DNA of 64,000 nucleotides from Flexistipes sinusarabici DSM 4947. Lineage in GTDB: Bacteria > Chrysiogenota > Deferribacteres > Deferribacterales > Flexistipitaceae. Numbering within the stretch: position 1 is the stretch's first letter; each line of letters begins with the position of its first letter. Position numbers and translations under genes: made by a program. The stretch is taken from positions 1,178,001 through 1,242,000 of the forward strand of contig NC_015672.1 in NCBI RefSeq assembly GCF_000218625.1, in the 5' to 3' direction. Positions 36,162-50,625 of the stretch are shown in pieces. The notes under the pieces are model-generated. The model saw only the letters and a list, made by a program, of their open reading frames with translations. It searched no databases and was not told the origin of the DNA.

Positions 36162-36707
36162 ATGCAGCTTTTAAAATTAACGGAAGAGCAACTGAAGAAC
36201 ATTTCCAGCGGAATCACTCTGCAGAGGGCAGAAAATTATGTGGGTAAATTTTACGAATGTGAAATTGAGGGAAACAGGCTGAGAGGAAAAATAAAAGGGA
36301 ACCATGGAGTATATAATGTTGAACTGATAATTGATTCAGACCCACTTGATTTTAAATGCGACTGTTCATCATCAAAGGAAATGTTTTGTAAACACGCTGC
36401 TGCATTGGGCTTAACATATATTTATACACCCTGGGTTTTCACTACTGAAGAAGAACTCGATAGAAATAAAATATCCACTACCGGAGAACTTCAATTTTAT
36501 TTGAAATCGGTAAAGCTGAAGGATCTTGTGGATGAGTTAAAAAGATGCTGCATTGGAGTATCAGCACTGGCTGATTTGACGGGAATTTCACTTCAGCAGC
36601 TGTCCATGATTATCAAAGATGACCAGAACGGCAAAAACCATACATTGACTATTCCCCTTAAACTTTCCTGCCTTTATCTTATTGAAAGGGGTGTGGAGGC
36701 TGAATAA
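36162..36707 (+). CDS. SWIM zinc-finger protein
   Basis: 181 residues. The SWIM signature CxCx(n)CxH is seen as KCDCSSSKEMFCKHAAALGL at about 66-85, within a domain beginning LQRAENYVGKFYECEIEGNRLRGKIKGN. The C-terminal half is helical (LVDELKRCCIGVSALADLTGISLQQLSMI) and contains an HTH-like stretch. SWIM domains bind DNA or protein partners. Its stop lies 12 bases from the end of the convergent helicase-exonuclease gene; in other bacteria stand-alone SWIM proteins accompany helicases, but a functional link here is speculation. Confidence 0.8.
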   Translation: MQLLKLTEEQLKNISSGITLQRAENYVGKFYECEIEGNRLRGKIKGNHGVYNVELIIDSDPLDFKCDCSSSKEMFCKHAAALGLTYIYTPWVFTTEEELDRNKISTTGELQFYLKSVKLKDLVDELKRCCIGVSALADLTGISLQQLSMIIKDDQNGKNHTLTIPLKLSCLYLIERGVEAE

Positions 36708-36718
36708 TAATATTGTTT

Positions 36719-39601
36719 TTATCTGGTTGTATGCTGAGATAAATATAATCTGTGATAATGCTTCCAGTTTACAGGAATTTGGACAATAAGTTCATTTACC
36801 GCAGCATATATTTTATTGTGGTTTATGCCGTACAGGAAAAGATCACGGGTAACATCGACATCGATTTTACAGTAATCGATTATTTTTTTTATCTGGCCTT
36901 CTTTATACCATTTCAATGCCTGCAGCCCGTCAGCCGATTTTTGGGCATTAATTGTTGCCTGGGCAAGATTGTCCAGAGAAAACCGGCGTCCGGTGATGTT
37001 TCGTATGTCCTGAAGCAGATCAATCTTTATTACAGTTTTTAGAATTCTGTTGAAATCTTCAGGTGTATCTTTTGCATAGCCTGAAATTACTTTGAAATCA
37101 AAATTGATAATATTAAAACCGATAACCGCTTTTGCTGCGGCCAGCTTTTTAATAAAGTCTCCTATATCATTTTCTTCATAAATATAGTATTTTTCATGAA
37201 CCATGGAATATGCCACGAGTGCTGAAATTCCCATTTTATCAGCGTTTTTCCAACCTCCCACCTCGTCGGCCGAATATTTTGTTTCCACATCGAATACAAA
37301 TACATCATCGTCTTTTTCAGAGATTCTTTTTGCATTGGCTGGAATTTCCCTAATTTTTCCTTTGCGACTGTTTAAGGAATTCTCTTGCAGTAAATGCTCA
37401 ATAAGGAATTCTGCACCTTTTTTATCCAGAGGATAATTTCCTGACCCGCATTTAGGCGAATAAATACAAGACGGGCAGCCTTCTTCACAATCGCAGGATT
37501 TTATCATTTTCAATGTTCTTTCAAGAAGAGGTCTTATTATTTCAAAAACCCTGCTGCATATTCCTGCCCCACCTGCATACGAATCATAAATAAAAACAGC
37601 CGAAGACTCCAGCTGAGGGTGTAACGGGTATGAAATACCGGCAATGTCGGAGCGGTCACACAGTACAAAAGAAGGCGCCATAGCAATAAGCGAGTGCTCC
37701 AGTGCATGAATACTACCCATGAAATTAAAATTGTTTTCCTCTACCTTTTCTCTGGCTTTCTCTGTCACAATAAGATAAAAACCTTTTGTTTCAAACTGCA
37801 CCGGTTCTTTTTCCAAATCAATTGTCTGGAGTTTTTCACCGGTTTTACCCGAAATCTTATCATATCCTGTCAGCTGTTCGGAAACCTGAAGATTACAAAA
37901 TCCGGCATGTATATTTTTATCATCAGAATCCATCTCTTTGGATAAAATCATGGTTTCTTTGTTTATTTTGGGCATTGTATAATAATTTCCCCTGAAAGGA
38001 TCCAAATAAATTTCTTTTTTATTGTGATCAACACGTTTAACGATAAAGTAATCTCCCCGATGAAGATAAACAGCATTTTCAAAGTGCTCTGTGTACAGCC
38101 TTCTACCTGAGTTGGTACCTATTACAATGCCGTTGCATACAAGTGTATATGTATCTCCGGCCATCCTGAAATCAACATTTTTATGAGGATATCTTTCCAG
38201 GGATACATATTTGAGTCCGTCCTTATCTGTGAAAAGTCTGCCTTCCGAAGCAAGTTTTTCTATATCGTTTTTCATGATATCATAATACCGCTCATTCTTT
38301 CCAACTGGCTTTTCATTAGCTGCACAGAGTATGTGTTTGCTGTTGATATTCGTGTTTTCCCTGTCGATAGTCACCACTTCGTATTTATCGGTGAAAAGCT
38401 CCTCAGGATTTTTTGCGTAATATTGGTCCAAAGCATCTTTAGAAGTTATCAGGCAGATAAGTGAATCTTTACTGCTTCGTCCTGAACGTCCGGCTCTCTG
38501 CCAGAGACTCATTAATGATCCCGGGTATCCCACCAGTATTGTTGAATCCACACCGCCGACATCTATCCCCATTTCGATAGCGGAAGTTGCCACAACAGCT
38601 TTTAATGTATCCTTATGAAAAGCCTGCTCGATTTTACGTCTTTCTTCGGGAAGAAAGCCAGCTCTGTATGAGGAAACAACATTTTTCCGGGAGGGATCAC
38701 CTGCTACAAGCTTGGCATAAATTTTTTCTGTCTGCTTTCTGGATTTTGTGAAACAGATGGTCTTGACTCCGGAATCAAGATTAATTTTCAGAAGGTATTG
38801 GGCAAGCGCAGATTCAGGAATATCCGGATTAAAAATTAAGACATTTTTTTTCCCTCTCTCGGCACCATTTTTATTTATATGATAAAATTTACGTCCAGTA
38901 AAATTTTCAACCAAATCCACCGGGTTACCAATAGTAGCAGATGCACATACAAACTGCACATTGGGCACTAAGCGAAGAAACCTTTGAAGCAGGTTGTATG
39001 CCTGTGTGCCGAAGATGCCTTTATAAGTGTGGATTTCATCGATTACAACATATTTGAGATTATCAAGGAAATTCCGCCATTCGGATATTCCGGGAAGCAT
39101 ACTGTAATGGATAATATCCAGATTTGAGATAATAACGTTGGGCGGGGTTTTTAAAATTTTCCGTCTGTTTTGTTTCCCTGTGTCCCCGTCTACAATCTCT
39201 GCTGTAAGTTTCTCTCCCAGAGGTATCTGCTCAGCAAGAGTTTCGAATGCTTTTTTCTGATCGTAACCGAGTGCTTTTATTGGAAAAAGATAAAGGGCTT
39301 TTACAGACGGATTGTTTATCATATCTTCCATAATGGGAAGGTTGTAACACAATGTTTTCCCTGAAGCTGCCGGAGTCGTTATTAATGTGTCACGGCCTGA
39401 TTTAATGGCCTGATAAGCATCTGCCTGGTGGGAGTATAAGGACTTTATCCCGAATTTTTCCAGAGCTGAATGAAGAAGCAGAGATTCAACATTCTCTTTG
39501 TAGTCAACCAGAGCAGGGGGCTTGGGTGGAATTTCCCGCTCAAAAACAAGATTCGAAGAAAATTTACCGTTTTTAATATATCTTATTACATTATCAATCA
39601 T
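36719..39601 (-). CDS. MrfA-type DEAD/DEAH helicase fused to MrfB-type 3'-5' exonuclease
   Basis: 960 residues. Residues about 1-750 form an MrfA/YprA helicase: Walker A TTPAASGKTLCY (near 76), VVIDEIHTYKGIFG, motif VI LWQRAGRSGRSSKDS and a C-terminal four-cysteine zinc site CDCEEGCPSCIYSPKCG. From about 767 a DEDD exonuclease follows: FVFDVETK, IGFNIINFDFKVI, IDLLQDIRN, RFSLDNLAQ and IIDYCKIDVDVTRDLF. In Bacillus subtilis the same activities are two adjacent genes, mrfA and mrfB, acting together in repair of mitomycin-type lesions. Here both are one polypeptide with no stop or frame change in the linker. The exonuclease residues look intact. Single gene, convergent with the SWIM gene. Confidence 0.87.
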   Translation of the reverse strand: MIDNVIRYIKNGKFSSNLVFEREIPPKPPALVDYKENVESLLLHSALEKFGIKSLYSHQADAYQAIKSGRDTLITTPAASGKTLCYNLPIMEDMINNPSVKALYLFPIKALGYDQKKAFETLAEQIPLGEKLTAEIVDGDTGKQNRRKILKTPPNVIISNLDIIHYSMLPGISEWRNFLDNLKYVVIDEIHTYKGIFGTQAYNLLQRFLRLVPNVQFVCASATIGNPVDLVENFTGRKFYHINKNGAERGKKNVLIFNPDIPESALAQYLLKINLDSGVKTICFTKSRKQTEKIYAKLVAGDPSRKNVVSSYRAGFLPEERRKIEQAFHKDTLKAVVATSAIEMGIDVGGVDSTILVGYPGSLMSLWQRAGRSGRSSKDSLICLITSKDALDQYYAKNPEELFTDKYEVVTIDRENTNINSKHILCAANEKPVGKNERYYDIMKNDIEKLASEGRLFTDKDGLKYVSLERYPHKNVDFRMAGDTYTLVCNGIVIGTNSGRRLYTEHFENAVYLHRGDYFIVKRVDHNKKEIYLDPFRGNYYTMPKINKETMILSKEMDSDDKNIHAGFCNLQVSEQLTGYDKISGKTGEKLQTIDLEKEPVQFETKGFYLIVTEKAREKVEENNFNFMGSIHALEHSLIAMAPSFVLCDRSDIAGISYPLHPQLESSAVFIYDSYAGGAGICSRVFEIIRPLLERTLKMIKSCDCEEGCPSCIYSPKCGSGNYPLDKKGAEFLIEHLLQENSLNSRKGKIREIPANAKRISEKDDDVFVFDVETKYSADEVGGWKNADKMGISALVAYSMVHEKYYIYEENDIGDFIKKLAAAKAVIGFNIINFDFKVISGYAKDTPEDFNRILKTVIKIDLLQDIRNITGRRFSLDNLAQATINAQKSADGLQALKWYKEGQIKKIIDYCKIDVDVTRDLFLYGINHNKIYAAVNELIVQIPVNWKHYHRLYLSQHTTR

Positions 39602-39650: not shown

Positions 39651-40601
39651 TCAGTTTAAATAGTCCGACAGCTTTCTTTTCATAGCTTTTTTTCTCAGTT
39701 TGGCGAGAGCTCTTGATTCCACCTGCCTGACTCTTTCTCTGCTTATTTGAAGCATCTCACCAACCTCTTCAAGGGTTTTGGGAGCTTCTCCCTCCATTCC
39801 GAATCTCCACTTTATTATTTTGGCTTCACGCTCGGAAAGTTCATCTACAATTTCACTGAGAGCCTCTGTAAGTGTTCCGTGGATGATTTCCTGCTCAACG
39901 CTGCCTGTTTCGGATTCAAGCAGATCGATGAAGCTCTTGTCTTCACCCTCTTTTATGGGGACTTCAAGGGAAAGATAATTTCTGGACACTCTTAATATGT
40001 TTTCAATATCCTCTGTGTCCATATCAAGATACTGTGATAGTTCATATGGAGTGGGCTCCTTGCCGTTTTCCTTTGTGAGTTTTTCCACTGCTTCATTTAT
40101 CTTATAAAGTATACTTGCCTGTTTGATAGGAAGTTTAACCGTTCCGGACTGCTCGGCCAAAGCCTGAATAATGGCTTGCCTTATCCACCATACTGCATAC
40201 GAGATGAATTTGACACCTCTTTCAGGATCAAAACGTTTTGCCGCTTCCACCAAACCAACATTACCCTGATTAATCAAATCGGTCATGCTTATTCCTGAGT
40301 TTTTATACCTGTTAGCAATTGAAACTACAAACTTAAGGTTGCTCAGGATAAGTTTATTCAATGCTTCCTCATCACCATCCTGAATCCGCTTCCCAAGTTC
40401 ATACTCCTCTTCACGGGAGAGGGGGGAAAACTGAGAAATTTTATTGAGATAACTTTTGAGCATGTCGTCAGAAACAGGGGCAAGAGCAGAGGGATCTTCT
40501 TCAAGTTTCTTTTCCAACTCTTTCGAGTCTTCCTCCACATCGTTCTCTAAAAGTTCGTCCTCTTCCTCTGCAATTTCTTCTTTCAGATTTTTTTCCGACA
40601 T
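39651..40601 (-). CDS. Sigma-70 family factor, group 2 type
   Basis: 316 residues: an acidic N-terminal extension (EEDELLENDVEEDSKELEKKLEED), region 1.2 DDMLKSYLNKISQFSPLSREEEYELG, region 2 NLKFVVSIANRYKNSGISMTDLINQGNVGLVEAAKRFDPERG and FISYAVWWIRQAI, region 3 and region 4 with the helix-turn-helix TLEEVGEMLQISRERVRQVESRALAKLRK. The strongly RpoD-like regions 2.4 and 4.2 but missing long region 1.1/NCR suggest a non-essential, RpoS/RpoD-like alternative factor. It stands behind clpB, separated by a terminator. RpoH-like use is possible but the HspR circuit makes it unnecessary. Confidence 0.85.
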   Translation of the reverse strand: MSEKNLKEEIAEEEDELLENDVEEDSKELEKKLEEDPSALAPVSDDMLKSYLNKISQFSPLSREEEYELGKRIQDGDEEALNKLILSNLKFVVSIANRYKNSGISMTDLINQGNVGLVEAAKRFDPERGVKFISYAVWWIRQAIIQALAEQSGTVKLPIKQASILYKINEAVEKLTKENGKEPTPYELSQYLDMDTEDIENILRVSRNYLSLEVPIKEGEDKSFIDLLESETGSVEQEIIHGTLTEALSEIVDELSEREAKIIKWRFGMEGEAPKTLEEVGEMLQISRERVRQVESRALAKLRKKAMKRKLSDYLN

Positions 40602-40666
40602 AATCTCTCCGAAAATATTTATCTTTAATGATAGTTACTATATGATTTTGTTCATAATTATAGCAC

Positions 40667-40698
40667 AAAAAAAAGTAAAGGGGAAATATTTCCCCTTT
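40667..40698 (-). terminator. Intrinsic terminator of the heat-shock operon
   Basis: Minus-strand stem AAAGGGGAAA/TTTCCCCTTT (40698-40677) followed by AC and eight T (40674-40667). It lies four bases beyond the clpB stop, so it closes hsp20-dnaJ-hspR-clpB and separates it from the sigma gene. Confidence 0.85.
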
Positions 40699-40701
40699 AT
40701 C

Positions 40702-43299
40702 TTATTCCAGAACAAGTGAATTGTCTTTTATGGAGGCTTTCACTTCCTGGTTATTTGTGATATTGCCTTTGATAATTTCATCGGCTATCTTGTTTTCTAT
40801 CAGCTTTTGTATAGCTCTTTTCATCGGTCTTGCACCAAATTTAGGATCGTATCCGGCTTTTACCACTTTTTCCACAACGGAATCATCATAATTGAAGTTT
40901 ATCATATTTTCACTTAATCGTTTGGCAAAGTCATCCAGCAGAAGCTTTGCTATCTCTTTCAGATGTTCATTGCTCAGCGGATGGAATACAATAATATCAT
41001 CCACCCGGTTAATAAATTCCGGTTTGAAGTGTTTGGAAAGCTGATTGAAAACCAGAGCATTTATTCTGCTGTATTCGTCTTCCCAGTCCAAATCGCCCGT
41101 AAATTCTTCCTGTATCAAGTCACTTGCGATATTTGAAGTCATTATAACGACAGTGTTTCTGAAACTGACAGTTCTTCCCTTGGAATCTGTCAATCTGCCG
41201 TCATCAAGAATCTGCAGCAGGATGTTGAATACGTCCTGATGCGCTTTTTCTATTTCATCTAAAAGTAATACGCTGTAAGGTCGCCTCCTGATTTTTTCTG
41301 TAAGCTGTCCGCCTTCTTCATATCCGACATAACCGGGAGGTGAGCCTATCAATTTAGCCACAGAGTGCTTTTCCATAAATTCGCTCATATCAAGTCGTAT
41401 CATTGCATCTTCCGTATCAAAGAGAAACTCTGCAACAGATTTTGCCAACTCTGTTTTACCAACACCTGTGGGACCTAAAAATATAAACGAGCCTATAGGC
41501 TTTTTCGGATTGCTGAGCCCGGCTCTGCTTCTCCTGATAGCCTCTGAAACTGCAGCAACAGCCTTATCCTGCCCAATTACCCTTTGATGGATAAAATCTT
41601 CCATATGAATGAGCTTATCGGCTTCTTCCTCGAGCAGTTTTGTAACAGGAATGCCGGTCCATTTGGATATAATCGATGCTATATCCTCTTCATCAACCTC
41701 TTCCTTCAGCATTTTTTTGTCTGCCTGAATATTTTTCAGCTTTTCATTTGTCTCTCTGAGTTTTGACTCAAGTTCCACCAATTTTCCGTATTTTATCTGG
41801 GATGCCTCTTCGAGATTGCCCTCTCTTTCAGCATTCTGCATCCTTATTTTGGCTTCCTCTATTTCCTTTTTTATTTCCCTCGACTCCTGTATCTGCGCCT
41901 TTTCATTCTGCCAGTGAGTTTTCAGTCTTGAAATTTTTTCAGTAAGATTACTGATTTCATTCTCAATTTTTTCCAGTCTTATTTTACCGGCCTCATTTTT
42001 CTCTTTTTTCATGGCCTGCTTTTCAATCTCAAGCTGTCTTAATTTACGCTCAAGCTCATCCAGTTCAGTTGGAAGGCTGTCTATTTCCATTCTGAGCTTT
42101 GCCGTTGCCTCATCTATTAAATCAATGGCCTTATCCGGCATAAATCTGTCTGAGATATATTTATCAGCAAGATGAGCAGCAGCCACAATGGCTGAGTCGG
42201 TTATTTTTACACCGTGGTGTACTTCGTACTTTTCCTTCAAACCTCTTAATATGGAAACGGTGTCCTCTACGGAAGGCTCTTTTATGTAAATCGGCTGAAA
42301 ACGCCTTTCAAGAGCTGCATCCTTTTCGATATGTTTTTTATATTCATCCAGAGTTGTTGCTCCGATGCAATGCAGCTCACCTCTTGCCAGAGCTGGTTTT
42401 AAAAGATTTGCTGCATCCATAGCACCTTCCGCTGCACCAGCTCCTATCAGTGTATGCATTTCATCGATAAACAGAACAATCTCTCCCTCCCGATCTTTAA
42501 TTTCTTTCAAAACAGCTTTCAGTCTGTCCTCAAATTCTCCTCTGTATTTTGTCCCGGCAATTAGGGAGCCTAAATCGAGGACCAGAACTCTTTTATCCTT
42601 TAGTGTCTCAGGCACATCACCGTTAACAACACGCTGTGCAAGCCCTTCTGCAATTGCTGTTTTACCGACACCCGGCTCGCCTATAAGAACCGGATTGTTT
42701 TTCGTTCTTCTTGAAAGTACATGCATAACCCGCCTTATTTCCTCATCTCTTCCAATAACGGGATCGAGTTTTCCTGTTGAGGCGTTTTCAGTCAGATCAA
42801 TGGTATATTTTTCCAGGGCTTCCATTTTTTCTTCCGGACTTTGATCCGTAACAGTGGTGCTGCCTCTTATATCTTTAATCGCTTTTTTTAAATCCTTTTT
42901 ATCTATACCGTGTTTTAGCAGGGTTTGCCTGAGTGAATATCCGGCATTTTCCACAATTCCAAGCAGAAGATGCTCTGTGGAAACATATTCATCGGAGAAT
43001 TCCTTTATGACTTTGAAAGCATAATCAAGTGCTTTCTTAGTATCATTTGAAATATATACCTGCTCCGATCCACTGACTGCCGGCAGGCTTGCTATTTCGT
43101 TGTTAATATCATCTTTTAAGGATGGGATATTAACACCCAGTTTCTGAAGCAAAGGTTTAATAAAGCCTTCTTCCTGGTTTACCAAGGCAAGGAGCAGGTG
43201 TGCAGGCTCAACCTGTTGATTATTTTTATTTTCTGCCAACTCAACTGCACTTTGCACAGCTTCACTGGCTTTTATGGTCATCTTATTCCAGTTTATCAC
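40702..43299 (-). CDS. clpB: ClpB disaggregase
   Basis: AAA+ hexamer that extracts proteins from aggregates with DnaK/DnaJ. 865 residues: N-domain repeats ([26 protein letters not shown]), first ATPase with [16 protein letters not shown], a long coiled-coil middle domain (about 400-530, the ClpB/Hsp104 hallmark), second ATPase with [14 protein letters not shown] and LLDEIEKAH. The GTG start at 43299 has AGGAGG eight bases upstream; an ATG six codons in is possible. It ends the operon. DnaK is not in the window. Confidence 0.96.
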
Positions 43300-43312
43300 T
43301 TATAGTTCCTCC

Positions 43313-43696
43313 TTACTCGTCTTCATTTTCTATTTCTATTTTTATTATATCTCTGTTCCTCAAAGGGACCAAACCTTTATCACCTTGTTCCATATCGAAG
43401 CTGTCAGCATGTTTTCTTATAAAATCCCTCAATAAGTCCAGTTGTTTCTGTGTTTCTTCAAGTTGCCGTTTCATATTTAAAACCACTTCAACACCCGCCA
43501 GGTTAACTCCCAGATCTTTGGTAAGTGTCAGTATAAATTTAATTTGCTCTATATCCTCCTCGGAATAGAGTCTGGTGTTACCTATTGTTCTGGAGGGTTT
43601 TATTAAGCCCAGACGCTCATATTGACGTAGTGTCTGCGGGTGAATACCGAGTATCTCAGCAACGACGCTTATCATATACAGTGGTCTGTTTTTCAT
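43313..43696 (-). CDS. hspR: HspR-type MerR-family heat-shock repressor
   Basis: 127 residues. The winged helix reads YMISVVAEILGIHPQTLRQYERLGLIKPSR, then RLYSEEDIEQIKFILTLTKDLGVNLAGVEVVL, then a coiled coil. IHPQTLRQYERLGL and the GVNLAGV turn are the diagnostic HspR sequences known from Streptomyces and Helicobacter, where HspR represses chaperone genes at HAIR sites with DnaK or CbpA as co-repressor. It sits between dnaJ and clpB, 14 bases from clpB. The promoter upstream of hsp20 has a HAIR-like site, so autoregulation is likely. Confidence 0.92.
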   Translation of the reverse strand: MKNRPLYMISVVAEILGIHPQTLRQYERLGLIKPSRTIGNTRLYSEEDIEQIKFILTLTKDLGVNLAGVEVVLNMKRQLEETQKQLDLLRDFIRKHADSFDMEQGDKGLVPLRNRDIIKIEIENEDE

Positions 43697-43706
43697 TTTT
43701 TACCCC

Positions 43707-44819
43707 TTACAGTTTTCCTTTTTGCATAATTTTTTGTCTGTTAACGATATCATAATGATTTTTCATCTCTTTCAGCGCCGCCCTGTCATTTTCAACAGCA
43801 ACCTGAGGAATTTTAACTTTTATTACAACATACAAATCACCGTGACCGCCGCCTTTAAGTTTGGGCATCCCTTTATTTCTGAGGCGGAACTTCTGATCAG
43901 GCTGAGTTCCAGCAGGGATATTAATATTAACAGCCCCATATGGGGTTGGAACTGATATTTTTTCTCCCAGTGCAGCTTCAAACATGTCCACATCCACATT
44001 TACATACAGATTGTTTCCTTTTCTCTCATACAACTCATGAGGGATTATTTTGGTAACGATATAAAGATCACCTGCAGGTGCATTATTTCTGCCTTCATGT
44101 CCTTTTCCGGTAATCCTGACTTTCGAACCGTTATCAACACCGGCCGGTATTTTTATCTTTATTTTTTCCGTTTTCTGTACAAAGCCATTTCCTTTGCAGC
44201 TGGTACATACATTGGTCAGAATTTTTCCCTGACCTCCGCATTTGGGGCAGGGTCTGCCGAATCCGAAGATTGAGTCGCGTCCTTCTGAACTGACTCCCTT
44301 ACCGCCGCAGGCAGGGCAGGTGACAACATCTCCGCCGGAGCCTCCGCAGGATTTGCAGTTGACATGACGACTCAGGTTTATTTCGTAATAATTCCCTTTA
44401 ACAGCATCTGCGAAAGGTATCTGGACAGAATAGTATATATCTTCTCCCTTGCTGGGTCTATCTGTGCGGCGGCTTCTGCCGCCCCGCCCGCCAAAAAGAT
44501 CACTGAAAATATCATCAAATATATCAAAACCTTCAAAATTAAAATTTCTGAAGTCCTCGAAATTAACATTTGAATAATCATATCCTTTGCCACTCTGTGT
44601 GAAAGCATCATGTCCCATTTGGTCATACTGCTTTCTTTTTTCAGGGTCAGACAAAACGGCGTAAGCTTCGGAAATTTCCTTAAATTTGTTTTCTGCTTCT
44701 TTATTGTTAGGATTAATATCAGGATGATATTTCCTTGCAAGTTTCCTGTAAGCTTTTTTTATCTCATCTTTAGTAGCGTTTTTGTCAATTCCGAGAATTT
44801 CATAATAGTTTTTAGCCAT
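43707..44819 (-). CDS. dnaJ: Chaperone DnaJ
   Basis: Type I J-protein that stimulates DnaK. 370 residues: J domain [37 protein letters not shown] with the HPD triad, a G/F-rich linker ([10 protein letters not shown]), the zinc region with four CxxCxGxG-like units ([33 protein letters not shown]), and the C-terminal peptide-binding domains. Eleven bases from hsp20 upstream, ten from hspR downstream. It could be the CbpA-like partner of the operon because the classical dnaK-grpE-dnaJ order is absent. Confidence 0.95.
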
Positions 44820-44830
44820 AAGACTCCCTT

Positions 44831-45271
44831 TTAATCACCTTTGTCCACTTTGATTGTTACAGGTTTTGATTCATTCTTTTTGGTTATTTTGATTGCCAAT
44901 ATGCCGTCTTTTAGTTTAGCTTTTATCCCTTCCAGATCGGCATTATTCGGCAGGCTGAAAGATCGTGTGAATTTACCGTAAGGTCTTTCCAGCCTGTAAA
45001 AATTATTGTCATTCTTGCTGTAAGGAACTTTCTTTTCACCTTTAACAACAAGCAGTCCTTCATTTACCTGGATATCCACATCCTCTTCTTTTGTCCCGGG
45101 CAGCTCCAAGGTCAGAATAATATCACTGTCAGTTTCATATATATCCACAGGAGGGGTCCATTCACCCTGACGTATATTAGCTTCGTTGCTGACAGTTTCA
45201 TCAAATATCTTATTGATTCTCTCCTGCACTGATAATAAATCCTTAAAAGGATCCCATCTTACAATAGCCAT
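44831..45271 (-). CDS. Small heat-shock protein (Hsp20/alpha-crystallin)
   Basis: 146 residues: N-terminal [20 protein letters not shown], an alpha-crystallin domain ([22 protein letters not shown] to [20 protein letters not shown]) with the conserved A-x-x-x-n-G-L-like end [16 protein letters not shown]-independent holdase. First gene of the heat-shock operon; GGAGG lies before the ATG and the promoter/operator is directly upstream. Confidence 0.94.
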
Positions 45272-47668: not shown

Positions 47669-49297
47669 TTTGACTTTAATTTTGCATTAGAAAATAACAA
47701 ACTCCGATTTTGATATTTTTCCTGTTGTTTTTAAAATACAAGAAAAGATTTTCCAAATATTACTTCATTCATACTTTACTAAAGCATAAATTTTCTCCAT
47801 TTACACCGTTTTTAGACACAGCAATACTGCCTATTGCCTGAATTGTCCACAAAGTTAACATAAGTAAAGAAAAAAGGTCACAACGTTAAACATTCTGTCC
47901 TCCACTGTTCCATTTTTTTGAACATATCCACACTGCAGCACAACTTCAGTTTATTACCGCCGTGGGACACAAGTTTCCCCGCTATAGATATGACCTGATA
48001 ACGTATACTACCCATCTCTTTATTTTTATAGACACCTCCCATTATGATTCGTTTGAGGTACATAATCAGATTATATGCCAGTATTCCTGTCTTAAACCAT
48101 AAGCCGTTACCCGCAAGATTACCCGAAGGAAAGCTTTTTAAATTAAAACCATACTTTGCTTCTTTTATATTGTATTCACAAACACCGCGCAAATTATAAA
48201 AATGTACCACCTTTTCTGCATCCAGTTTTGAATTAGTTGCAATAACACGATATTCATATTTATCACCAAGAAGCTCCGGAACTGTGGGGTTGTCTGACTC
48301 AATTTTCTTACGAACAACTATTATACGGAAACTCTCCTTAGTGTTTTCCATACAGTGAATAAACTCTGCTATTTCCTCATTATCGCTTTCATCTCCATAC
48401 CTATTTCTATATCTTTTCCATGAATCAGATGGTATATGATTTATTCCTTTACGAACTGAACTATCAAGGTCACCTCCTATAAAAAACGTTAAATCGTTAT
48501 CAAAACAGTAATTCAATACTTTAGATTGGTAACCGGCAGAATCATTACGAACATTGGATACTTCTATACCACAAGATTCAAGATATTTATGGACTCTCTG
48601 AAGCTGTTCAAGTATGCCAACCTGGGCACTTACATTGCCTTCCCGAAATTCCTCGTCTATACAATAACCGCTCTCTCCTATAAAACACGTCATAGAACTG
48701 TATGCTTTAAATTTCTTATAACAATACTTGGCATCCCTTTTATACACCTTTGCATAAGTGGCGTCCTGATCCAGAGTAACTGAAAATAAATTTTCTCTTT
48801 TTAAAGCATCTTTCACTATTTTATAGTTGAGACTGCCCAGTTTGCTGATTGTTTTATTAACTGCTACTTCATCCAACATGCTTTCTGTTTTTGAAAAATA
48901 CCTACTGATGCTGGAACTATCCGGGATATCTTCAATACCGCTGATATAGCTTAAAACCTTATCAAAAGAAAGTTTGTCGATATCACTGAAACTCCTGCCA
49001 CCGCATATCATCGATAGAATAACAGGAATTATTTTAGAAGATGGCGGTTTGCCTCTGTTAGAGCCTGGATGATCAAGTTCTTTATCAAGGAAATCTCGGA
49101 TGCCCATCTTATCTAACAGTGGGATTAACAAAGATATTCCACCAAATGGGGTAATTTTATCATTGCTTCTTTCTAATTTGTAGTTTAGTTTGCTCATTGT
49201 AAGTCACCTTTTTGGTTGTGGTTTTTGTTTTCTTAAAACCTTAATCTACAACATCTTAAAGGTGGCTTGCAACTCCTAATGCAATCTTAAAGTTTGA
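47669..49297. mobile_element. IS1380-type insertion sequence with TTTGA target duplication
   Basis: The 1619-bp element spans 47674-49292. Ends: CTTTAATTTTGCATTAG at 47674-47690 against CTTTAAGATTGCATTAG (reverse complement of 49276-49292), 15 of 17 identical. TTTGA flanks it on both sides (47669-47673 and 49293-49297), a 5-bp target duplication. The single internal gene is a full-length transposase, so the copy may be active. Confidence 0.85.
47878..49197 (-). CDS. IS1380-type DDE transposase
   Basis: 439 residues with the family pattern: VTLDQDATYAKVYKRDAKYCYKKFKAY for the first acidic residue, EFREGNVSAQ, RNDSAGYQSKVL with another catalytic aspartate, IGGDLDSS and the C-terminal NLRGVCEYNIKEAKYGFNL with the glutamate. 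An intact gene at normal length, sitting centrally within the terminal repeats. No sign of frameshift. Confidence 0.85.
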   Translation of the reverse strand: MSKLNYKLERSNDKITPFGGISLLIPLLDKMGIRDFLDKELDHPGSNRGKPPSSKIIPVILSMICGGRSFSDIDKLSFDKVLSYISGIEDIPDSSSISRYFSKTESMLDEVAVNKTISKLGSLNYKIVKDALKRENLFSVTLDQDATYAKVYKRDAKYCYKKFKAYSSMTCFIGESGYCIDEEFREGNVSAQVGILEQLQRVHKYLESCGIEVSNVRNDSAGYQSKVLNYCFDNDLTFFIGGDLDSSVRKGINHIPSDSWKRYRNRYGDESDNEEIAEFIHCMENTKESFRIIVVRKKIESDNPTVPELLGDKYEYRVIATNSKLDAEKVVHFYNLRGVCEYNIKEAKYGFNLKSFPSGNLAGNGLWFKTGILAYNLIMYLKRIIMGGVYKNKEMGSIRYQVISIAGKLVSHGGNKLKLCCSVDMFKKMEQWRTECLTL

Positions 49298-49310: not shown

Positions 49311-50625
49311 TTTCTGTAAATTCATGTAGCACCGGCCGAAGGCCGGTAAATATGTGGAACACATTATTTCTCCAAATTAATATAGACCCTATTTGTTTCC
49401 CATTCATCACTAATCTCAGCGACAATAGCTGTAACAAGCCTCAGTAAAGATTCTGTATTTGGAAAAATGGTAGCTGTCCTTGTTCTTCTTTTTATTTCAC
49501 GGTTTAACCTCTCTACTCCGTTTGTTGTCCTAAGACGCCTTCTGTGAGAAACAGGAAAATTAAAAACCGTTAATCCCTCAGGAATATTTTCCTCAGCCCA
49601 ATTACATAGTTTGGAAGCTGAATTTTTGTATTTTGCAACCAAACTGTTTAATTTTTCCCTGGCTTCTTCGCCGTCCTCTGCATTGAATATGCTGCGGATA
49701 TCCCTGGCCGCTTCCTCTCTCATTCCTATTCTAGGTACATATGCCTGTGCATTACGCTGTAAATGACACTGGCATCTCTGCCACGGTATACTTGGCATTT
49801 GAGCCTTCCTGGCAGCATTTAACCCAGCATGGTCGTCACTGATAATTAATTTAACTCCATGCAAACCTCTCTTTTGCAAAGATTTAAGAAATTCACGCCA
49901 GTGTACTTCTGCTTCTGATAAAGATACGCTGGTACCCAGTACTGTCCTTTTACCGTCAGAACGTACACCCATGGCTATAAAAACAGCTACATCTATAACA
50001 GAACCTGAATACCTCACTTTCTCATAACGGGCATCAAGATACAAATATGGAATCTCTCCAATAGAACGGTTACGCCAAGACTCCAGTTCCTCGTCCAATA
50101 ACTTGGCTGCTCGGGAAACCTCTGTACTGGTTACTTCGCAACCGCATAATTGTTCCGTTATATTGGCTACCTTACGTGTCGATACTCCTTTTACATACAT
50201 CTCGGCAACTGCAAGCTTCAAAGCTCGCTCACTGCGAAGGCCTTTTTCCAATGCACTTGGATAAAAGCTTTCTCCCTCAGGTAAATTACGCACCTGCGGA
50301 ACATGAAGGGACAATTCGCCCAAACGAGTCCTTACGCGTTTGTCCTTATAGCCGTTAGAATAACCCACACGATCTGTTTGTTGTCCGTTCGAATGGTTCT
50401 GCATTCAAATATTTGGAACGCTCAATTCGCATCGCTTCATTAAGAAGTATTTCGATTACTTGTCCCATACCTTCAAATCCATTGGAATTTAACTCTTCCA
50501 ATACCTCAGAAATTATTTTACTATCTTTCTCATAGTGGGGCATATGCTCTTCCTCCTTATTTGATAGCCGAATCAATTTGGAGAAATCATATGCCCTGCT
50601 TGCATAAAATGCAAATTTACAGAAA
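49311..50625. mobile_element. IS256-type insertion sequence, frameshifted
   Basis: TTTCTGTAAATT (49311-49322) is the inverse of AATTTACAGAAA (50614-50625), a 12-bp terminal match. Each end continues into a small hairpin: ACCGGCC-GAA-GGCCGGT at 49331-49347 and TTGCAT-TTT-ATGCAA-type on the right. Size 1315 bp is typical. I see no target duplication. It lies 13 bases beyond the IS1380 duplication, upstream of priA. Confidence 0.65.
49364..50543 (-). pseudogene. IS256/mutator-type transposase, split by a one-base insertion
   Basis: Two frames join. The first part starts at ATG 50543 (MPHYEKDSKIISEVLEELN; AGGAGG upstream) and ends shortly after ERSKYLNAEPFERTTNRSC. The second resumes as DRVGYSNGYKDKRVRTRLGELSLHVPQVRN and runs to 49364 with catalytic DARYEKVR, DDHAGLNAAR and the C-terminal NGVERLNREIKRRTR. 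One extra A in ACAACAAACAG (about 50375-50383) shifts the frame; removing it gives an ordinary transposase of about 390 residues. IS256 elements do not normally need frameshifting, so I call it disrupted; slippage or a sequencing error is possible. Confidence 0.75.

Follow-up and report, generated by a model that had tools for sequence, protein, structure and literature searches.

A single-chain MrfA-type helicase and predicted DEDDy exonuclease in Flexistipes sinusarabici and other bacterial phyla

Introduction

The best-known analogue of the protein described here is WRN, in which a DEDDy-type exonuclease and a 3'-5' SF2 helicase are found in one chain. WRN has a RecQ helicase, an N-terminal exonuclease and no MZB domain, whereas the chain studied here has an MrfA-type helicase and carries its exonuclease at the C-terminus. 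In bacteria, DinG of S. aureus likewise joins a helicase to a 3'-5' exonuclease in a single chain, but its helicase is XPD-like and moves 5'-3', the opposite of the polarity that we infer for our protein, and its exonuclease is an N-terminal DEDDh domain rather than a DEDDy one (PMC12345164).

Closer in sequence is the MrfAB system of Bacillus subtilis, which acts on mitomycin adducts and in which MrfA (YprA) and MrfB (YprB) are encoded by separate genes. Whether and how the two proteins interact was stated to be unknown by the authors of the MrfB structure (PMC11194089). One sentence in the main text of a 2025 preprint (PMC12458937) mentions fusions of YprA helicases with MrfB/YprB homologs; our protein very probably belongs to this same kind, with the nuclease called MrfB/YprB there. 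Here we analyse such a gene from F. sinusarabici DSM 4947, which the original prediction had read as a natural fusion of MrfA and MrfB.

Results

The window is a stretch of 64,000 nucleotides of the F. sinusarabici chromosome (NC_015672.1, positions 1,178,001 to 1,242,000), and its relevant features are collected in Table 1. The frame of the fusion gene contains no internal stop, its coordinates contain exactly one gene, and the gene is single copy in the genome. The same one-frame protein is found in 19 genomes of the order, F. sinusarabici included, distributed over four families (f1, f4, f5 and f8) and absent from four others (f2, f3, f6 and f7). Because the orthologues, at 96, 68 and about 52-56% identity to the F. 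sinusarabici protein, are uninterrupted from end to end, a frameshift, a sequencing error or a missed stop near residue 760 can be excluded, and the single unbroken chain that had been proposed holds, as 18 further genomes of the order keep the frame. The F. sinusarabici genome also contains a second, weak MZB match (G000:C1:1736338-1736541, minus strand, 36.9 bits) in an open frame of 189 aa, which may be a YprA-family gene that has split or decayed.

Table 1. Features of the fusion gene and its surroundings (positions in the window)
Feature	Residues	Position	Strand	Remarks
Helicase-exonuclease fusion gene		36719..39601	-	intact ORF, 960 codons/aa, ATG start
DEAD/RecA1 domain	57-228	38918..39433	-	Pfam PF00270, E 4.6e-29
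Helicase_C/RecA2 domain	269-376	38474..38797	-	Pfam PF00271, E 2.2e-16
HRQ1-type winged helix	412-479	38165..38368	-	Pfam PF22982, 29.4 bits, cutoff 27
MrfA zinc-binding domain (MZB/DUF1998)	634-713	37463..37702	-	Pfam PF09369, E 1.5e-23
Cysteine cluster C703-C705-C709-C712 and C718	703-718	37448..37495	-	invariant in 17 fused proteins
Flexible linker (predicted)	740-763	37313..37384	-	pLDDT below 50 in AlphaFold2 model
DEDDy 3'-5' exonuclease domain (predicted)	766-946	36764..37306	-	alignment, AlphaFold2 model, fold matches
Catalytic D771 and E773, Exo I (FDVETK)	771, 773	37283..37291	-	100/100 family members
Catalytic D835, Exo II (NFDF)	835	37097..37099	-	100/100 family members
Catalytic Y910 and D914, Exo III (YCKID)	910, 914	36860..36874	-	100/100 family members
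Heat-shock cluster upstream of the fusion (hsp20-like, dnaJ-like, hspR, clpB, sigma-70 family factor)		39651-45271	-	
181-aa protein with SWIM-like motif (CDCSSSKEMFCKHA)		36162-36707	+	no Pfam/NCBIfam match
Neighbouring pair of transposase-like genes, unlike in type		47878-49197 and 49364-50404	-	by eye

As judged from alignment and model, the helicase half is an SF2 helicase of the MrfA/YprA/Hrq1 type, in agreement with the original prediction. In phmmer, residues 9-714 align with those of B. subtilis MrfA (6ZNP) at an E value of 1.4e-117, sharing helicase core, winged helix and MZB domain over this length, and 6ZNP is also the best PDB match of the whole-chain AlphaFold2 model (pLDDT 83.8, pTM 0.79; Foldseek E 1.3e-66). 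The ATPase motifs are present: I (TPAASGKT), II (DEIH) and III (SAT) in the first RecA domain and VI (QRAGRSGR) in the second, with S80, G81, K82, D188, E189, H191, S221 and T223, and likewise Q368, R369, G371, R372, G374 and R375, invariant in 17 fused proteins. The zinc site had been described as one of four cysteines; all four are there, but the set was incomplete, as C718 is a fifth invariant one. MrfA itself has no nuclease domain. Here, the zinc site is followed at a spacing that varies from 32 to 116 residues among 38 ORFs by the exonuclease, and residues 740-763 or thereabouts are predicted to form a disordered, flexible tether between the two halves.

The chain ends about 14 residues past the exonuclease domain. 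The motifs on which a DEDD exonuclease had been proposed (FVFDVETK, NIINFDF and YCKIDVDVTRD) are all found in the same chain as the helicase, and the four acidic residues of the set, D771, E773, D835 and D914, stand as proposed; the fifth, however, is a tyrosine and not the histidine of MrfB. It is this residue, Y910, within a YCxxD motif kept in 100/100 relatives, that makes the domain DEDDy. The AlphaFold2 model of the isolated domain (pLDDT 88.1) matches by fold the proofreading domains of RB69, Tgo, T7 and Pol epsilon, and also viral exonucleases. Pfam RNase_H_2 (PF13482, cutoff 22) matches residues 809-920 weakly, with 28.2 bits in the whole protein and 31.7 in the isolated domain, which passes PF10108 too (26.0 bits, cutoff 24). 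In the library search PHROG 403, 'DNA polymerase exonuclease subunit', reaches 46.4 bits with the domain, against 31.7 for PF13482. This search is free of any comparison set chosen by similarity, and it agrees with a profile-profile comparison in which the domain scores 91.9% with MrfB and 99.3% with phage polymerase exonucleases, the latter value being inflated by a phage set chosen by similarity to one family member. The nearest relatives outside the domain's own family are these phage exonucleases (PHROG 403; for example Bdellovibrio phage phi1422 gp06), which share about 26-32% identity with it and are stand-alone or lie within phage polymerases, with no helicase in the chain. Residue set, PolA/PolB exonuclease fold and closest profiles all place the domain, by sequence and model, in the polymerase proofreading (DEDDy) type, closest to the exonucleases of phage DNA polymerases. 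No polymerase part or partner was seen in the chain or among the neighbouring genes: the domain is fused to a helicase, and the neighbours are not polymerases.

A literal MrfA-MrfB fusion would consist of an MrfA and a shortened, diverged MrfB, acting on mitomycin adducts like the B. subtilis pair. The helicase is clearly of the MrfA type, the exonuclease lies above the PF13482 cutoff, as does B. subtilis MrfB (8UN9), with which it shares the DEDD superfamily, and the main text of PMC12458937 groups fused proteins as YprA plus MrfB/YprB homologues. Given this weak PF13482 pass, a very distant kinship to MrfB is real. The founding name of this Pfam family is YprB, and its viral members are named 'YprB ribonuclease H-like'; it is probably because the domain reaches PF13482 that such proteins are labelled YprA-YprB fusions.

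Several lines of evidence nonetheless separate the domain from MrfB. The fifth catalytic residue is Tyr in 100/100 family members and His in 19/19 MrfB proteins, that of B. subtilis being published as DEDDh with H258/D262 (PMC11194089), although catalytic type alone is a weak test because Tyr is likewise found at this position in two other PF13482 groups. Fold alone is indecisive too, because MrfB itself resembles PolB exonucleases (PMC11194089). A C-terminal TPR domain, present in MrfB, was not found by Pfam in the fusion protein, and instead of a separate gene beside mrfA we find a single reading frame. A 16-sequence profile of the domain left the MrfB chain 8UN9 unmatched in the PDB even at E 10, whereas the control, a true MrfB encoded directly behind its MrfA (L052 in G056), finds 8UN9 at 4e-26. 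An HMM of the exonuclease family gives 260 bits to the F. sinusarabici domain, 28-65 to phage exonucleases and at most 14 to MrfB, and with an HMM built on the MrfB core the domain reaches 13.8 bits, its family 2.7-19.1 and MrfB proteins 197-246, own-group scores being high by construction since each group built its own HMM. In the profile-profile comparison MrfB clusters with other strong PF13482 groups (99.0-99.3%), apart from the domain. The alignment thus puts the C-terminal domain outside the MrfB family; we reject its identity as MrfB, and the 'MrfB-type exonuclease' of the original prediction is not borne out. Since the helicase also falls in a separate clade and two genomes carry MrfAB-type genes besides the fusion (see below), we regard a literal MrfA-MrfB fusion as unlikely. 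Two strong RNase_H_2 proteins of about 500-550 aa, with the domain at the C-terminus, occur in genomes that also have the fusion (G145 and G283; L226:1410-2912, minus strand, and L227:424-2079, plus strand); considered as MrfB candidates, they were unmatched by the MrfB profile and were not counted.

The fusion represents a protein type that is old and widespread, found across several phyla, and not a local oddity. In a sample of 290 genomes, from the phylum of F. sinusarabici and other bacteria, the exonuclease lies beside an MZB motif in 44, with the same open-frame length for both in 43 of them (G133 differs). A search for further fused proteins had been suggested with the original prediction, and the fusion is one kept over long stretches of evolution. 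Fused members occur in Deferribacterota, Thermodesulfobacteriota, Acidobacteriota, Gemmatimonadota, Latescibacterota, Tectimicrobiota (Entotheonella) and KSB1. A contig database holds at least 557 relatives, the best 80 comprising 47 fused, one split or adjacent and 32 alone, of which two or more sit at contig edges. In the helicase tree, which is unrooted, comes from a short search and includes many fused members gathered by similarity, a branch with SH-aLRT 99 separates the fused proteins from B. subtilis MrfA and all unfused helicases. Since the fused helicases form a single clade, their sequences are consistent with one old fusion event. The exonuclease tree, built on a short and diverged domain, has weak deep branches and needs five label changes, and does not order the stand-alone and fused forms in time. 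Among the unfused MZB helicases, 24/58 lie within 4 kb of a strong RNase_H_2 gene.

The exonuclease also exists alone, in 16/290 genomes and mainly in Nitrospinota and SAR324; among the MZB helicases typed, which comprise proteins of up to about 1,500 aa, none comes from these 16 genomes. The domain can therefore work by itself, and it might be fused yet independent, for instance as a general proofreader of 3' ends with no mechanical coupling to the helicase, a view to which the long and variable linker lends itself. We find this very improbable: the fused state is kept in one helicase clade across phyla, and neither the 290 genomes nor the best 80 loci contain an unfused neighbour pair of exonuclease and helicase, apart from apparent frame breaks. 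The stand-alone copies in Nitrospinota and SAR324, from genomes with no MZB helicase, are 195-255 aa long (G055/L027:1423-2064, L083, L087, L112, L121 and similar). Their neighbours in these two phyla (fliD, moxR, dnaJ, OMP decarboxylase) gave no functional clue.

The neighbours of the fusion gene are recG, the sigma factor, clpB, hspR and the dnaJ/hsp20-like genes. HspR passes its NCBIfam equivalog, and the sigma-70 factor scores below the RpoD, RpoS and RpoH cutoffs. The fusion gene follows the sigma-factor gene by 49 bp on the same strand, an arrangement found in the genus. An operon running from hsp20 through dnaJ, hspR, clpB and the sigma factor to the fusion was considered as a clue to function and dropped, being absent at loci beyond the genus; also, a terminator-like site after clpB, by consensus match only, separates the cluster from the fusion. 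Among the loci compared we found no conserved gene neighbourhood pointing to repair. On the other side, the gene for the 181-aa protein is convergent with the fusion gene, with 11 bases between the stop codons, and has the same place in a member of the genus (L004).

The sigma-factor neighbour could be taken, together with the inclusion of the exoribonucleases RNase D and NrnC among DEDDy families (PMC11194089), to indicate an enzyme directed at RNA or RNA-DNA hybrids, in which the helicase would unwind hybrids and the DEDDy domain would trim RNA 3' ends like RNase D or NrnC. This seems improbable to us, as it is DNA-polymerase exonucleases that come closest in both sequence and fold, MrfA acts on DNA, and that neighbour is unconserved outside the genus. 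Less plausible still is an anti-phage defence helicase with the exonuclease as effector, comparable to the relatives of YprA that belong to DISARM, Dpd, Druantia and ARMADA. The YprA family does have many defence helicases, several with C-terminal nucleases (PMC12458937, main text), and the helicase region weakly matches PADLOC models; these matches, however, are confined to the generic helicase core, the highest being 165 bits to BrxH, and by Pfam the OB-CON region is without the extra zinc modules of the defence branch. Further, the neighbours are housekeeping genes, with no methyltransferase, BrxHII-like helicase or PLD nuclease partner genes, and the gene, present in one copy, has been retained across four families of the order.

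Discussion

Two complete sets of catalytic residues have long been conserved in one chain, and we consider this protein to be probably a single-chain helicase-nuclease, most likely of DNA repair, in which an MrfA/YprA helicase is tethered to a DEDDy proofreading-type exonuclease as a fusion of its own and not as a joined MrfAB. By analogy with MrfA (PMC11194089 and the main text of PMC12458937), the helicase would have 3'-5' polarity, and the exonuclease would digest 3'-5' as is usual in the DEDD superfamily. With both polarities 3'-5', motor and nuclease would share one tracking strand, along which the motor would advance toward the 5' end and the nuclease would trim back the 3' tail. In such a scheme, the helicase would load on a 3' single-stranded tail or gap and move 3'-5' on single-stranded DNA, opening the duplex, and the tethered exonuclease behind it would digest the same strand from its 3' end; a damaged or displaced strand would thereby be removed in one direction ahead of resynthesis. 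DNA as the substrate and the coupling of the two activities are both presumed in this scheme. The design is WRN-like and the role perhaps MrfAB-like. We give about even chances to the broader proposal that these proteins form an anciently fused, separate repair enzyme of WRN-like design, running parallel to MrfAB in several phyla and with no characterised member.

The relation to MrfAB is illuminated by two draft MAGs. In one of them (G197) the fusion and an unfused MrfA-type helicase lie on different contigs, the helicase with MrfB immediately behind it; in the other (G269) a true MrfB and a second, unfused helicase accompany the fusion. Both drafts have up to 3% estimated contamination. Since these MAGs seem to carry the fusion and MrfAB-type genes together, the fusion is not simply MrfAB in one gene. 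If the coexistence is right, the fusion works beside MrfAB and not instead of it. A role against mitomycin would be a transfer from MrfAB, and so a reasonable first test rather than a conclusion. Set against the main text of PMC12458937, what appears to be new here is the DEDDy nuclease family, the separate clade of fused helicases, and the apparent presence of both systems in some genomes.

Matches to the 'YprB domain' of PF13482 should accordingly not be read as MrfB. Also, for the question of how MrfA and MrfB cooperate, a natural single chain offers a stable object in which helicase-nuclease coupling can be measured. That a different DEDD partner was apparently joined once to this helicase, and has been kept across phyla, suggests that what benefits this type of helicase is a 3'-5' exonuclease and not specifically MrfB.
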